Part shown: one piece after another, positions 21,449 through 27,362 of the stretch
How the letters are laid out: every line of letters begins with the position of its first letter
How positions within the stretch are numbered: position 1 is the first letter of the stretch
From: Peptococcaceae bacterium BRH_c8a
Lineage (GTDB): Bacteria; Bacillota; Desulfotomaculia; Desulfotomaculales; Desulfallaceae
DNA length: 50,526 nt
Reading direction: 5' to 3'
Assembly: GCA_000961575.1 (NCBI GenBank)
Contig: LADP01000029.1
Span: forward strand, 1 to 50,526
Translations under genes and position numbers: made by a program
The notes under the pieces: generated by a model
What the model saw: the letters and a program-made list of their open reading frames with translations, nothing else
What the model was told of the DNA's origin: nothing
Databases searched by the model: none

Positions 21449-22537
21449 TTATTTTACCGCTTTCAGATTTAACCCGACTCGGGCCCGTTCCCGGATTTCC
21501 TCAATTTCTTTGGCGCTGACTGCTCTCTCAAAACTTCTAAATCCAGCCAGTTTAAAATTATGTTTTTTGGCAATGGCTGTTATTTCCTCCACCTGCTGCA
21601 GCGTAAGGTCACGACCCAGGGTGAAATTTTCATACCGGCCTTCCATGGACAACATCATGGTTTCCGCCATGCAGGCGTAAGACATGCCGGGTGGAAAACC
21701 GAAATTAAAATTAAAATTAACCTTGCCTGGCACCTCCACCACACCGCCTTCGATGACCAGCACGTCCTTGCGCTGTTCGGCCACCTGCTTGGATACGTTA
21801 CGAGGACGGCTGACGTCGCATACCACGGTACCGGGCATCAGATCCTCAGGCCCGATAATGGTATCTACAGCGCTGGTCACCGTGATTACGATTTGAGCGC
21901 TTTTCAGGGCGTGTTTAATGTCCGAAGTAATCCGGGCCGCTACACCGGTATCGTAAGTAATCCGACGGGCCAGCTCATCAAGACGGTTTTTGTCACGGGC
22001 CACCAGGGTCAGCGAGCGCACATCCTTGGCCAGCATCCGCGCGCAAACCCGGCCGATGGAACCGGTTGCTCCCACCACTACGGCGTGGCTTTTTTTCAAG
22101 TCGTGCCCCATCAAGCGGGCCGCTTCTTTAGCCCCTTCCAATGCCGTGGCCACCGTATAGCTGTTCCCCGTGGTCACTGCAATATCCAAGTTTTTGGCTA
22201 TGGTAAGGCCGGCATCACCCACCACCGAGGTAAAGGCCCCCAGGCCCACTATTTTAGCGCCCAGCTTTTGAGCCAGCCGGCCGGCCTTAATAATTTTTTT
22301 CATCACGTACTCTTCAGGCAAATCAACCATCAGCCGGGCAGTCAGCGGACAGGCCACAAACCAGCCCTCGGTCTGGGCATGTTGGGAATATACACCGGTA
22401 ATTTTTGAGACTTTTATAGGCGGAACCATTTTGAACAGGTTTTCCTGTATACGCGGCGGCAGTTTGCCCACCAAACCGAATTTTCTTGAGAAGTCGCTGA
22501 TGTCCAGCGGGTGGATGATAAATGCAAAGGTGTTCAT
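21449..22537 (-). CDS. Long-chain acyl-ACP-reductase-like (AAR family) dehydrogenase
   Basis: ATG 22537 follows AAGGAGG by 8 nt, giving 362 residues; the open frame to 22687 is translated repeat DNA. The whole length resembles cyanobacterial acyl-ACP reductase. LGAFTSVVGDAG lies at about 99-110, TTGNSYTVATALEGA at 122-136, the nucleotide loop VVVGATGSIGRV at 153-164, and GMSYACMAETMMLSMEGR holds Cys289 where the cyanobacterial enzyme has its acyl-binding catalytic Cys; ENFTLGRDLTLQQVEEI follows. By family logic it would reduce fatty-acyl thioesters to aldehydes. Automated tools often call such proteins shikimate/quinate dehydrogenase, but no substrate is proven. It pairs with the regulator gene just upstream. 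Confidence 0.8.
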   Translation of the reverse strand: MNTFAFIIHPLDISDFSRKFGLVGKLPPRIQENLFKMVPPIKVSKITGVYSQHAQTEGWFVACPLTARLMVDLPEEYVMKKIIKAGRLAQKLGAKIVGLGAFTSVVGDAGLTIAKNLDIAVTTGNSYTVATALEGAKEAARLMGHDLKKSHAVVVGATGSIGRVCARMLAKDVRSLTLVARDKNRLDELARRITYDTGVAARITSDIKHALKSAQIVITVTSAVDTIIGPEDLMPGTVVCDVSRPRNVSKQVAEQRKDVLVIEGGVVEVPGKVNFNFNFGFPPGMSYACMAETMMLSMEGRYENFTLGRDLTLQQVEEITAIAKKHNFKLAGFRSFERAVSAKEIEEIRERARVGLNLKAVK

Positions 22538-22591
22538 ACAATGTTCCTCCTTGATATGGTCCCTAGCTAGTGTTCCTGAATAAGTCTTGGT

Positions 22592-22773
22592 GAGGGGTTT
22601 GGTGTTACCTACAGGATGCCACTCGCTTTTATACTTGAACGAGCTCATTCGCCTGCGGGCGCCGGAGAACTCGCGCCCTGCGGGCACTCAGACATGCACC
22701 GGCGCTTTTCCGCAGGCTCTCTCGCTCTTTGAACTAAGCTCCTACGCATCCTTACGATAACACCAAACCCCTC
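22592..22773. repeat. Long imperfect inverted repeat upstream of the AAR-like gene
   Basis: Arms 22592-22619 and 22746-22773 match in about 23 of 28 positions (end GAGGGGTTTGGTGTTA). The interior also has partly pairing GC-rich segments, so the 182-nt unit can fold as one long hairpin. A partial copy of the left end is found at 34686-34710 after panD. Confidence 0.75.
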
Positions 22774-22794
22774 CGAAAATTTTTCAACGAAGAA

Positions 22795-23325
22795 CTAACT
22801 ACCGGCCTTGACGGCTCGAATAATCGCCAGCATTTCAGCCGGGTCTACATATTTATCTTCCCGAATGGGGGATTCACCGATTTCCAGCCCCACCACTTCT
22901 TTATCCAAGGCGGCCCGGATAATTTTTATCCGCTTGTCCGAACCGATGACCACTATTTGGTCAAAAGAATGCGCCCTGGCAGTCAATTCCATGATATAGT
23001 CAAAAAGCTCAATGCCGCTTTTCTGCCGCACGAACTCCCAGCGTTCGGTCTCGCTCATCAGCAGGGTGAAATCTACACCTTCCTGTTCGAGCAAATCGAA
23101 TATTTCTTTCCGGTTGGCAATGGGAAAACCAATTACGGCCACGCTTTTACCCTTGCGCACTTCACCCAGGTTTTCCATACGGGATACCAAAGTGCGATCC
23201 ACACCCAGACGGGCGGCCACCTCGGTCTGGGAAAGCCCTGAAGACCGCATTTGCAAAATTTCGTTAATCACGTAATCTATCTTGTGCCTGCTTACAACCT
23301 TATCGCCGATGCGTATCAGGTCCAA
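22795..23325 (-). CDS. HTH-type transcriptional regulator with C-terminal sensor-like domain
   Basis: Residues about 15-58 form a Cro/XRE-like helix-turn-helix (MRSSGLSQTEVAARLGVDRT, LVSRMENLGEV). The rest (about 60-176) looks like an alternating alpha/beta domain (KSVAVIGFPIANRKEI, DQIVVIGSDKRIKIIRAAL) that may bind a ligand; I cannot name a family. It lies directly upstream of the AAR-like gene on the same strand, so it probably controls it and itself. A near-perfect 26-bp palindrome sits just downstream of its -10 box. The protein ends 257 nt before the AAR-like start, a gap filled by the 22592 repeat. Confidence 0.8.
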   Translation of the reverse strand: MDLIRIGDKVVSRHKIDYVINEILQMRSSGLSQTEVAARLGVDRTLVSRMENLGEVRKGKSVAVIGFPIANRKEIFDLLEQEGVDFTLLMSETERWEFVRQKSGIELFDYIMELTARAHSFDQIVVIGSDKRIKIIRAALDKEVVGLEIGESPIREDKYVDPAEMLAIIRAVKAGS

Positions 23326-23356
23326 GTTAAAATATCCTCCTCATTAAAAAAGCAAT

Positions 23357-23414
23357 GACTGTGCACAATTCTGTGTACAGTCATATTGTAACAGTGCTGA
23401 ATATGGAAAGTCAA
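23357..23414 (-). promoter_or_regulatory. Promoter and palindromic operator of the 22795 regulator
   Basis: On the minus strand TTGACT (23409-23414) and TACAAT (23385-23390) are 18 nt apart. Immediately downstream, 23357-23382 is a palindrome with 11-nt arms (GACTGTACACA / TGTGCACAGTC, one mismatch) and a 4-nt centre. Its position over the start point fits repression, most simply by the adjacent regulator itself. Confidence 0.75.
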
Positions 23415-26657: not shown

Positions 26658-27362
26658 ATGTGGAAAGAGTCTAATTGGGCATGTTGGCGCGTGGTAGCCA
26701 AACTGGATCCCGACAAGCATATCGATAAAGACACCATGCTCAGGGTCGCCGGCGCAGGGTTTGACGCTATCATGGTAGGCGGAACGCAGGGTATAACCCG
26801 GGAAAAAACTTTAAATCTCCTGGGCCAAATTAGGCAAAGCGGCTATCAGGGACCTGTAGTACAGGAAGTAACAATAGCCGCAGTGATAGCACAGGGAAGT
26901 GTACAAGCTTATTTCCTGCCGCTGGTACTAAACGCCGGAAACATTCTGTGGTTGTCCGGTCTGCACCACCAGGCTATCAAACGGTACGGAGACCGGATCC
27001 CCTGGGACATAACCGTGGCGCAAGGTTACGTAATATGTAATTCCCACTCGGCTGCTGGAAGACTGACCGGAACTGGACCGGTAAGCGTAAAGGATGTCCT
27101 GGCATACTGCGACCTGGCCGAGAATATGCTGGGCCTGCCACTGCTATACCTGGAATACAGCGGCGTTTTTGGAGATCCTGCGCTGGTGGAAACCGTGGCG
27201 CGACATCGGAAAAAAATACACCTGTTTTACGGAGGTGGAATAAATTCCGCCGACCGGGCCCGCATCATGGCCGCACTGGTAGACACCATCGTTGTAGGCA
27301 ACGTTATTTACGAAAATCCTGCGTCTGTGGAAGGTATAGTTAACGCGGCCAGGTACTTATAA
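26658..27362 (+). CDS. pcrB: Heptaprenylglyceryl phosphate synthase (PcrB family)
   Basis: This TIM-barrel prenyltransferase joins heptaprenyl diphosphate to sn-glycerol-1-phosphate, giving archaeal-type ether lipid precursors in some Firmicutes. KLDPDKHIDKDTM, GFDAIMVGGTQGITREK, PLVLNAGNILWLSGLH, LPLLYLEYSGVFGDPALV, HLFYGGGINSADRA and TIVVGNVIYEN match B. subtilis PcrB in order. The length of 234 residues is close to the usual 228. No pcrA or ligA follows, unlike the standard pcrB-pcrA-ligA order. The ribosome site is weak (GGCGGTGG). Confidence 0.9.
   Translation: MWKESNWACWRVVAKLDPDKHIDKDTMLRVAGAGFDAIMVGGTQGITREKTLNLLGQIRQSGYQGPVVQEVTIAAVIAQGSVQAYFLPLVLNAGNILWLSGLHHQAIKRYGDRIPWDITVAQGYVICNSHSAAGRLTGTGPVSVKDVLAYCDLAENMLGLPLLYLEYSGVFGDPALVETVARHRKKIHLFYGGGINSADRARIMAALVDTIVVGNVIYENPASVEGIVNAARYL

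Follow-up and report, generated by a model that had tools for sequence, protein, structure and literature searches.

A predicted split acyl-thioester reductase and aminotransferase pair under a common operator in spore-forming anaerobes

The window analysed here is a stretch of 50,526 nucleotides from Peptococcaceae bacterium BRH_c8a (class Desulfotomaculia, phylum Bacillota; contig LADP01000029.1). An open reading frame on its minus strand, at 21449–22537, specifies a 362-aa protein, hereafter AAR, which is a predicted acyl-thioester reductase of the AAR/PigE/TamH family (the type of cyanobacterial AAR, the N-terminal part of PigE and the C-terminal part of TamH). In many spore-forming anaerobes, AAR is most likely the first half of a route from an activated (fatty) acid to an amine, the second gene of which lies elsewhere in the genome under the same switch. 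We consider it probable that the gene provides the reductase half of a split, co-regulated module of the PigE/TamH type, leading from an acyl thioester through an aldehyde to a primary amine. The computed basis of this proposal comprises the homology with its Cys match, a shared operator sequence, the existence of fusions and the mutual replacement of fusion and pair. The module is supported because both halves resemble one characterised enzyme, PigE, because the operator is common to the genes of the regulator (REG) and AAR and to that of the aminotransferase (AT), and because fusions of the two activities exist, pair and fusion replace each other, and AT and AAR co-occur.

In the proposed mechanism, an acyl group would pass from its carrier (ACP or CoA) to Cys289 of AAR, NAD(P)H would serve to reduce the thioester so formed, and AT would convert the free aldehyde thus released to a primary amine. 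By binding palindromes near the starts of the REG–AAR operon and the AT gene, REG may ensure that both halves are made together. We infer the enzyme activity and its direction, as well as the carrier, the chain length and the fate of the amine.

Family assignment of the reductase

Against NCBIfam, the top match of AAR was PigE, in its N-terminal reductase part (E 3.5e-62), and the acyl-ACP reductase family AcACP_reductase (TIGR04058) was matched over residues 34–329 (E 6.7e-38). The score on TIGR04058, 130.9 bits, is far below the curated cut-off of 449.7 bits, so AAR is a homologue that falls outside that equivalog; on the PigE equivalog NF053554 it scores 210.9 bits and the curated cut-off of 850 bits is not reached. 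Among PDB sequences, PigE (4ppm) was matched at E 2.5e-30 and Synechococcus AAR (6jzq) at E 3.2e-25 over residues 36–329, and a profile of 14 AAR homologues ranked PigE (152.8 bits) above cyanobacterial AAR (128.3) and the carmabin TAD (45.7). Homology to the AAR/PigE/TamH reductases spans nearly the entire reductase; in the available text of papers on fused relatives, such reductases are assigned to COG5322.

Alignments place GATGSIG, a nucleotide loop of the GxxGxxG form, at residues 156–162, and Cys289 in one column with Cys294 of SeAAR and Cys296 of PigE. According to the parts of two studies available to us, the residue of the Cys294 type bears the acyl group in AAR (PMC9743570, PMC9594044). 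A preliminary description of this DNA had recognised a homologue of cyanobacterial AAR carrying GATGSIG, which the NCBIfam, PDB and residue-level results bear out, and had named a mismatch between Cys289 and the AAR nucleophile as a check; the mismatch did not occur. Its suggestion of an aldehyde as the likely immediate product also seems right, the activity being predicted from the protein sequence. In the portions of the literature accessible to us, we found no activity report for any standalone clostridial AAR.

The NAD domain by itself could be taken for that of a shikimate or other amino-acid dehydrogenase, as Pfam assigns residues 140–256 to PF01488 (Shikimate_DH, 5.8e-14). However, PF01488 was the sole domain that Pfam detected on AAR, with no match to the shikimate substrate-binding domain, the near-full-length matches are PigE and AAR, and the conserved Cys with its flanking motif is of the thioester-reductase type. 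We regard a shikimate dehydrogenase as very improbable and rejected it, since Pfam supports the NAD domain only. The homology to AAR would also fit the supply of aldehydes for alkanes in the cyanobacterial manner, a branch raised in the preliminary description. Yet the window genome contains no aldehyde-deformylating oxygenase (PF11266, 0/1 genome), while the positive control was found in Synechococcus elongatus, and this oxygenase uses O2, as stated in the accessible text of PMC9743570; an alkane route is scarcely conceivable here.

A regulator and its operator

The REG gene (22795–23325, minus strand, TTG start) encodes a 176-aa regulator with an N-terminal helix-turn-helix (HTH) and a small C-terminal alpha/beta domain. 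HTH_3 was the sole Pfam family over its cut-off (24.4 versus 23 bits), and a fold search with the alpha/beta domain gave no significant match, the best being Rex at E 0.0096. The operator is a palindrome, TGTGCACA-ATTC-TGTGTACA, at 23360–23379, inside the segment 23357–23382 reported earlier; this copy, TGTGCACAATTCTGTGTACA, matches the consensus TGTRCACANNNNTGTGYACA exactly. Upstream of REG in 66 loci (one more was dropped for too short an upstream region), TGTRCACANNNNTGTGYACA was found exactly in 29, with at most one mismatch in 51 and with at most two in 57, whereas the same upstreams, shuffled once each, gave 0/66 with at most two mismatches and a minimum of four. The consensus was derived from these same loci, so 57/66 is a measure of conservation and not an independent test. 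Together with the exact consensus match in the window, these counts led us to reject a chance palindrome, and the HTH regulator with a palindromic operator of its own, as first described, is real.

A sigma-70-like promoter, called by consensus match only, lies at 23385–23414 on the minus strand (TTGACT-18-TACAAT); such sites occur in the stretch near the shuffled level (4 found versus 2.9 expected). The operator is directly downstream of the candidate −10 element, a position suggestive of a repressor-like role; both the binding of REG and its regulatory sign are predictions. REG is absent from 40 of the 113 genomes of the class, of which 33 retain AAR and 36 retain AT.

In the window, REG is separated from AAR by a 182-bp element (22592–22773) with 28-nt inverted repeats that are 86% complementary. 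The gap of 257 bp compares with about 20–140 bp in three congeners (G010, G011 and G012; G, C and L denote genomes, contigs and loci of our set). The element looks like a MITE-type insertion, and its 15-nt end was present, among 313 loci, solely in those representing the window. Locus L309 (G064:C118:12492–13001) has a further, diverged paralogue of REG (42%) between dusB-like and greA/lysS-like genes, named by eye; the stretch read there holds no operator with at most two mismatches, and no AAR match is listed in it.

The aminotransferase gene as second operator target

The 4.17-Mb window genome contains two operator sites with at most two mismatches, at 23360–23379 of the window and at C42:11795–11814; a reversed-pattern control gave one site. 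The second site lies in the promoter region of AT (G000 contig C42:10361–11752, outside the window), followed by GGGAGG and a TTG start, and AT is a class III PLP-dependent aminotransferase by homology. The regulator, thought at first to be dedicated to AAR, is not so, as its operator motif also precedes the aminotransferase gene. The best characterised match of AT was the aminotransferase part of PigE (E 1.2e-147), ahead of putrescine aminotransferase (3e-114), and PigE ranked first against the PDB; on the PigE equivalog NF053554, AT scored 493.6 bits and did not reach the curated cut-off of 850 bits.

An operator with at most two mismatches precedes AT in 19 of 35 loci of the class, mostly 38–56 bp ahead of the start (0/35 after shuffling), and in 5 of 20 loci outside the class (no shuffled upstream). 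These 55 loci are the top-scoring ones from 109 and 138 genomes with a match, and those of the class include L232, L233, L234, L241 and L254. Among the 75 sites listed for the class at up to one mismatch, 68 precede REG, AAR, AT or orf8: 47 lie before REG, 17 before AT, one between divergent REG and AT genes, two before AAR where REG stands elsewhere beside AT (G078, G079), and one before an orf8 on another contig (G069). The remaining seven, in G010, G013, G028, G033, G038 and G069 (C1 and C5), are unassigned. On C5 of G069, the site precedes AT by ~540 bp and is followed by a small ORF, perhaps in one operon with AT; that on C192 of G010 is within an ORF, ~230 bp before another gene; that on C56 of G013 is some 400 bp before a uvrA-like gene; and those in G028, G038 and on C1 of G069 are inside ORFs. 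From these assignments, the regulon consists of REG, AAR and AT, with orf8 where present. Within the regulon so defined, we found neither an acyl ligase nor a carrier nor an amine-using gene.

In the phylum sample, standalone AAR accompanies AT in 117 of 125 genomes, versus 66 of the 273 others, and four of the 125 have no AAR match of any kind; a further 13 AT hits, weaker at E 9e-133 to 5e-111, were left out of this count. A strong AT is absent from 66 of the 183 genomes with standalone AAR, so AAR may have other partners there.

The main rival to amine synthesis is the catabolic direction, in which AT would deaminate an alkylamine or polyamine, whereupon the AAR-like enzyme, as an acylating aldehyde dehydrogenase, would yield acyl-CoA. 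Reactions of class III aminotransferases can run either way, and many of these enzymes serve to degrade amines, a point that we count against the module. The likeness of AT to putrescine aminotransferase, an aldehyde dehydrogenase gene directly downstream of an AT–reductase fusion (L042:5303–6775) and a local regulator compatible with an inducible catabolic pair are all in keeping with breakdown. Nevertheless, no pathway or catabolic gene recurs around AT in 21 loci including that of the window genome, AAR or a fusion occurs in nearly all genomes of the class, which is unusual for a catabolic option, and amine formation is the direction described for the characterised relatives PigE and TamH in the source texts available. 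We thus judge breakdown to be unlikely and retain synthesis as the preferred direction. In 5 of the 21 loci, AT is divergent to a gene pair that we take to be ylxM-ffh.

Distribution and neighbourhood of AAR

An AAR match was found in 109 of the 113 class genomes (E ≤ 0.001; fusions and a few fragments counted) and, at the same threshold, in all 80 good genomes of the class. In the phylum-wide sample of 398 genomes, 241 have a match (E ≤ 1e-20; fusions included); sorted by E-value and number of matches, 183 of these are standalone, 49 fusion-like and 9 other. A fatty-aldehyde or ether-lipid branch in a spore former had been called unexpected; on these counts AAR is a core gene of its class and no oddity. 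Of at least 533 matching places, the best 80 include Desulfallas, Desulfotruncus, Desulfofundulus and Thermoanaerobacter, as well as Moorella, Carboxydothermus, Sporomusa, Pelosinus and Tepidanaerobacter. Sporulation was considered as an explanation, an AAR-like gene being present in 201 of 288 Spo0A-positive versus 12 of 45 Spo0A-negative genomes, and was set aside, as this association is not exclusive and is confounded by ancestry.

In a set of 101 clustered loci, in which certain genomes are represented by two entries (L060 and L099, for instance), AAR is present in 92, lysS in 81, dusB in 70, REG in 67 and orf8 in 44, and the commonest order is dusB-REG-(orf8)-AAR-greA-lysS. The ether-lipid gene pcrB (26658–27362) lies 4.1 kb from AAR, as the preliminary description had noted. 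The functional link that this distance might suggest is not supported: within flanks that mostly extend up to 8 kb, pcrB is near AAR in just 2 of the 101 loci, those of the window and one congener, and the adjacency appears incidental.

Ether lipids or plasmalogens, to which AAR would contribute a fatty aldehyde with AT as a side partner, have another possible trace in the neighbourhood. A trio of two DUF2229 genes and a BadF/BadG activase gene stands upstream of dusB-REG-orf8-AAR in L159, L160, L283 and L284 (at 8350–11398 in L283, the locus whose domains were scanned), and a PgpA-family gene is found beside AT in L283 and L284, a few kb further up from the trio. DUF2229 and BadF/BadG activase are domain types that we take to be those of plsA/plsR, and the hint given by these neighbours is weak. 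Against it, few loci have the trio, pcrB is not conserved beside AAR, the operator ties AAR to AT and not to lipid genes, and, in the available text of PMC9702350, bacterial plasmalogens arise from diacyl lipids through two reductase genes, so that no aldehyde is needed. A role in ether lipids is decidedly unlikely, and the amine module remains the reading that we favour.

Fusions and replacement of the pair

Fusion proteins of ~885 aa, in which Aminotran_3 precedes the reductase (the TamH order), are encoded in 19 of the 113 class genomes, with REG beside the fusion in 6/6 loci read. In the window genome, reductase and AT are separate genes on different contigs, and there is no fused polypeptide. 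The 94 class genomes without a fusion have canonical AAR in 87 cases, AT in 89 and both in 86; among the 19 with a fusion, canonical AAR was found in one and AT in three, the AAR fragments of G039, G059 and G084 being scored as absent. The exceptions are G029, with a fusion and an intact AAR, and G071, G080 and G082, with a fusion and AT.

A Cys occupies the catalytic column in 86 of 92 standalone proteins and in 6/6 fusions. Five genomes, G025, G026, G027, G031 and G032, have a fusion together with a diverged AAR whose catalytic column holds Phe, Ser, Leu, Ser and Ala, respectively, and the sixth standalone protein without the Cys (L112) has Ser. In three of the five Cys-less copies (G026, G031 and G032), a Cys stands two residues before this column, where it could serve as a shifted nucleophile. 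Mutual replacement and Cys loss form the pattern expected if fusion and pair share one job. In the tree, the fusion reductases form a clade of their own (6/6, support 1.0), apart from the standalone proteins (93/93, support 0.93); given this separate, old clade, the fusion has replaced the pair and was not assembled from these genes.

In genomes with a fusion, the Cys-less AAR copies (L045, L055, L056, L044 and L047) still occupy the old locus as open frames and are possibly retained for another role.

A third conserved gene

A conserved 300-aa protein, orf8, is encoded in 44 of the 101 loci (for example L118:7084–7983), in many Clostridia between REG and AAR. A search of the window genome found none, although the search had no known positive there. 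No Pfam family reached its cut-off on orf8, and neither NCBIfam nor PDB sequences gave a match. In structural comparison, the best alignment of the predicted model (pLDDT 89.7) was with AAR (Z 14.6 over 253 residues, 4.4 A), followed by the carmabin reductase (Z 14.0) and then glutamate dehydrogenase (10.7). Foldseek gave AAR the top TM-score (0.51) among the matches listed, while by E-value two sugar-binding proteins with lower TM-scores came ahead of it. As a sequence homologue of AAR, orf8 was rejected (profile comparison E 0.65), and the link is one of fold comparison alone. Its alignment holds no invariant Cys. Fold, operator and position suggest that orf8 may be a remote, Cys-less partner of the pathway with a predicted AAR-like fold.

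Another conserved protein, of ~320 aa, occurs in 13 loci (including L118:5471–6430 and L106:2771–3736), in most of them between dusB and REG, with Sporomusa, Tepidanaerobacter and Fervidicola among its carriers; the one member scanned had no Pfam or NCBIfam match.

Discussion

The assays on characterised relatives, as given in the portions of the papers available to us, bear on the module in both directions. PtTamH turned C12-ACP into the aldehyde with NADH and on into the amine, and did not accept C12-CoA (PMC9594044). PigE in cell lysate gave an aminated product from a thioester, and purified PigE gave none (PMC8341465). In the fusion of Thermincola ferriacetica, the transaminase domain was active on linear aldehydes and the reductase domain was not assayed; the same authors associate the thermophilic fusions with secondary metabolism, in the form of predicted prodiginine-like alkaloid clusters (PMC10829540). 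We count against the module the negative assays of PigE and PtTamH, the 66/183 genomes without a strong AT, the operators in 5/20 loci outside the class, the lack of REG in 40/113 genomes, the exceptional fusion genomes, the separate fusion clade and the earlier Cys in 3/5 copies. The lack of a ligase, carrier or amine-using gene in the regulon and the prodiginine-type cluster link of the thermophilic fusions weigh on the same side.

The enzyme family, its chemistry and the fusions are already known: conversion of acyl thioesters to amines by such enzyme pairs has been described for prodigiosin, tambjamine and koreenceine clusters and for expressed fusions. The literature accessible to us in part yielded no report of the split pair as core genes, of the shared operator and regulator, of the replacement pattern or of the third gene. 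Our results predict this chemistry as a nearly class-wide and often co-regulated trait of anaerobes. They propose a testable role for numerous genes whose products have dehydrogenase-like domains, draw attention to thermophilic monofunctional enzymes by which fatty acids could be turned into amines, and place an uncharacterised protein with a predicted AAR-like fold in one regulon with a regulator whose operator is defined. More tentatively, and with the balance tilted somewhat against it, a core regulated pathway from an acyl carrier to an undescribed primary amine may be shared by spore-forming and related anaerobes of the phylum, with a split PigE-type pair, orf8 in many lineages, and a regulator family and operator of which the literature accessible to us gave no description. 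The amine is possibly a fatty amine or an aminolipid precursor.

Among known systems, AAR and AT each find their best characterised match in one half of PigE of prodigiosin MAP biosynthesis (PDB 4ppm), with the catalytic Cys kept. PigE is, however, one protein with the reductase first and part of a pigment cluster, whereas the window genome has separate genes on different contigs with a common operator, and AAR is here near-universal in the class. PtTamH and the AT–TR fusions (Tfer_2018 of Thermincola ferriacetica, PP_2782 and KecF) resemble the pair in domain content, Cys and GxxGxxG; the TamH-type domain order is common to the fusions of the 19 class genomes, while the window genome has the split form, and the available text of papers on these enzymes yielded no mention of REG, the operator or orf8. 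Cyanobacterial AAR (6JZU) shares the family, the Cys294 equivalent and the nucleotide loop; the window genome, by contrast, lacks ADO, and its AAR is closer to PigE and below the TIGR04058 cut-off. Glutamyl-tRNA reductase and GSA aminomutase (HemA/HemL) are alike in that a Cys thioester reductase passes an aldehyde to a PLP enzyme, a comparison drawn in the accessible text of PMC8341465, but the resemblance of AAR to HemA is confined to the NAD domain (residues 135–254, E 2.1e-14).
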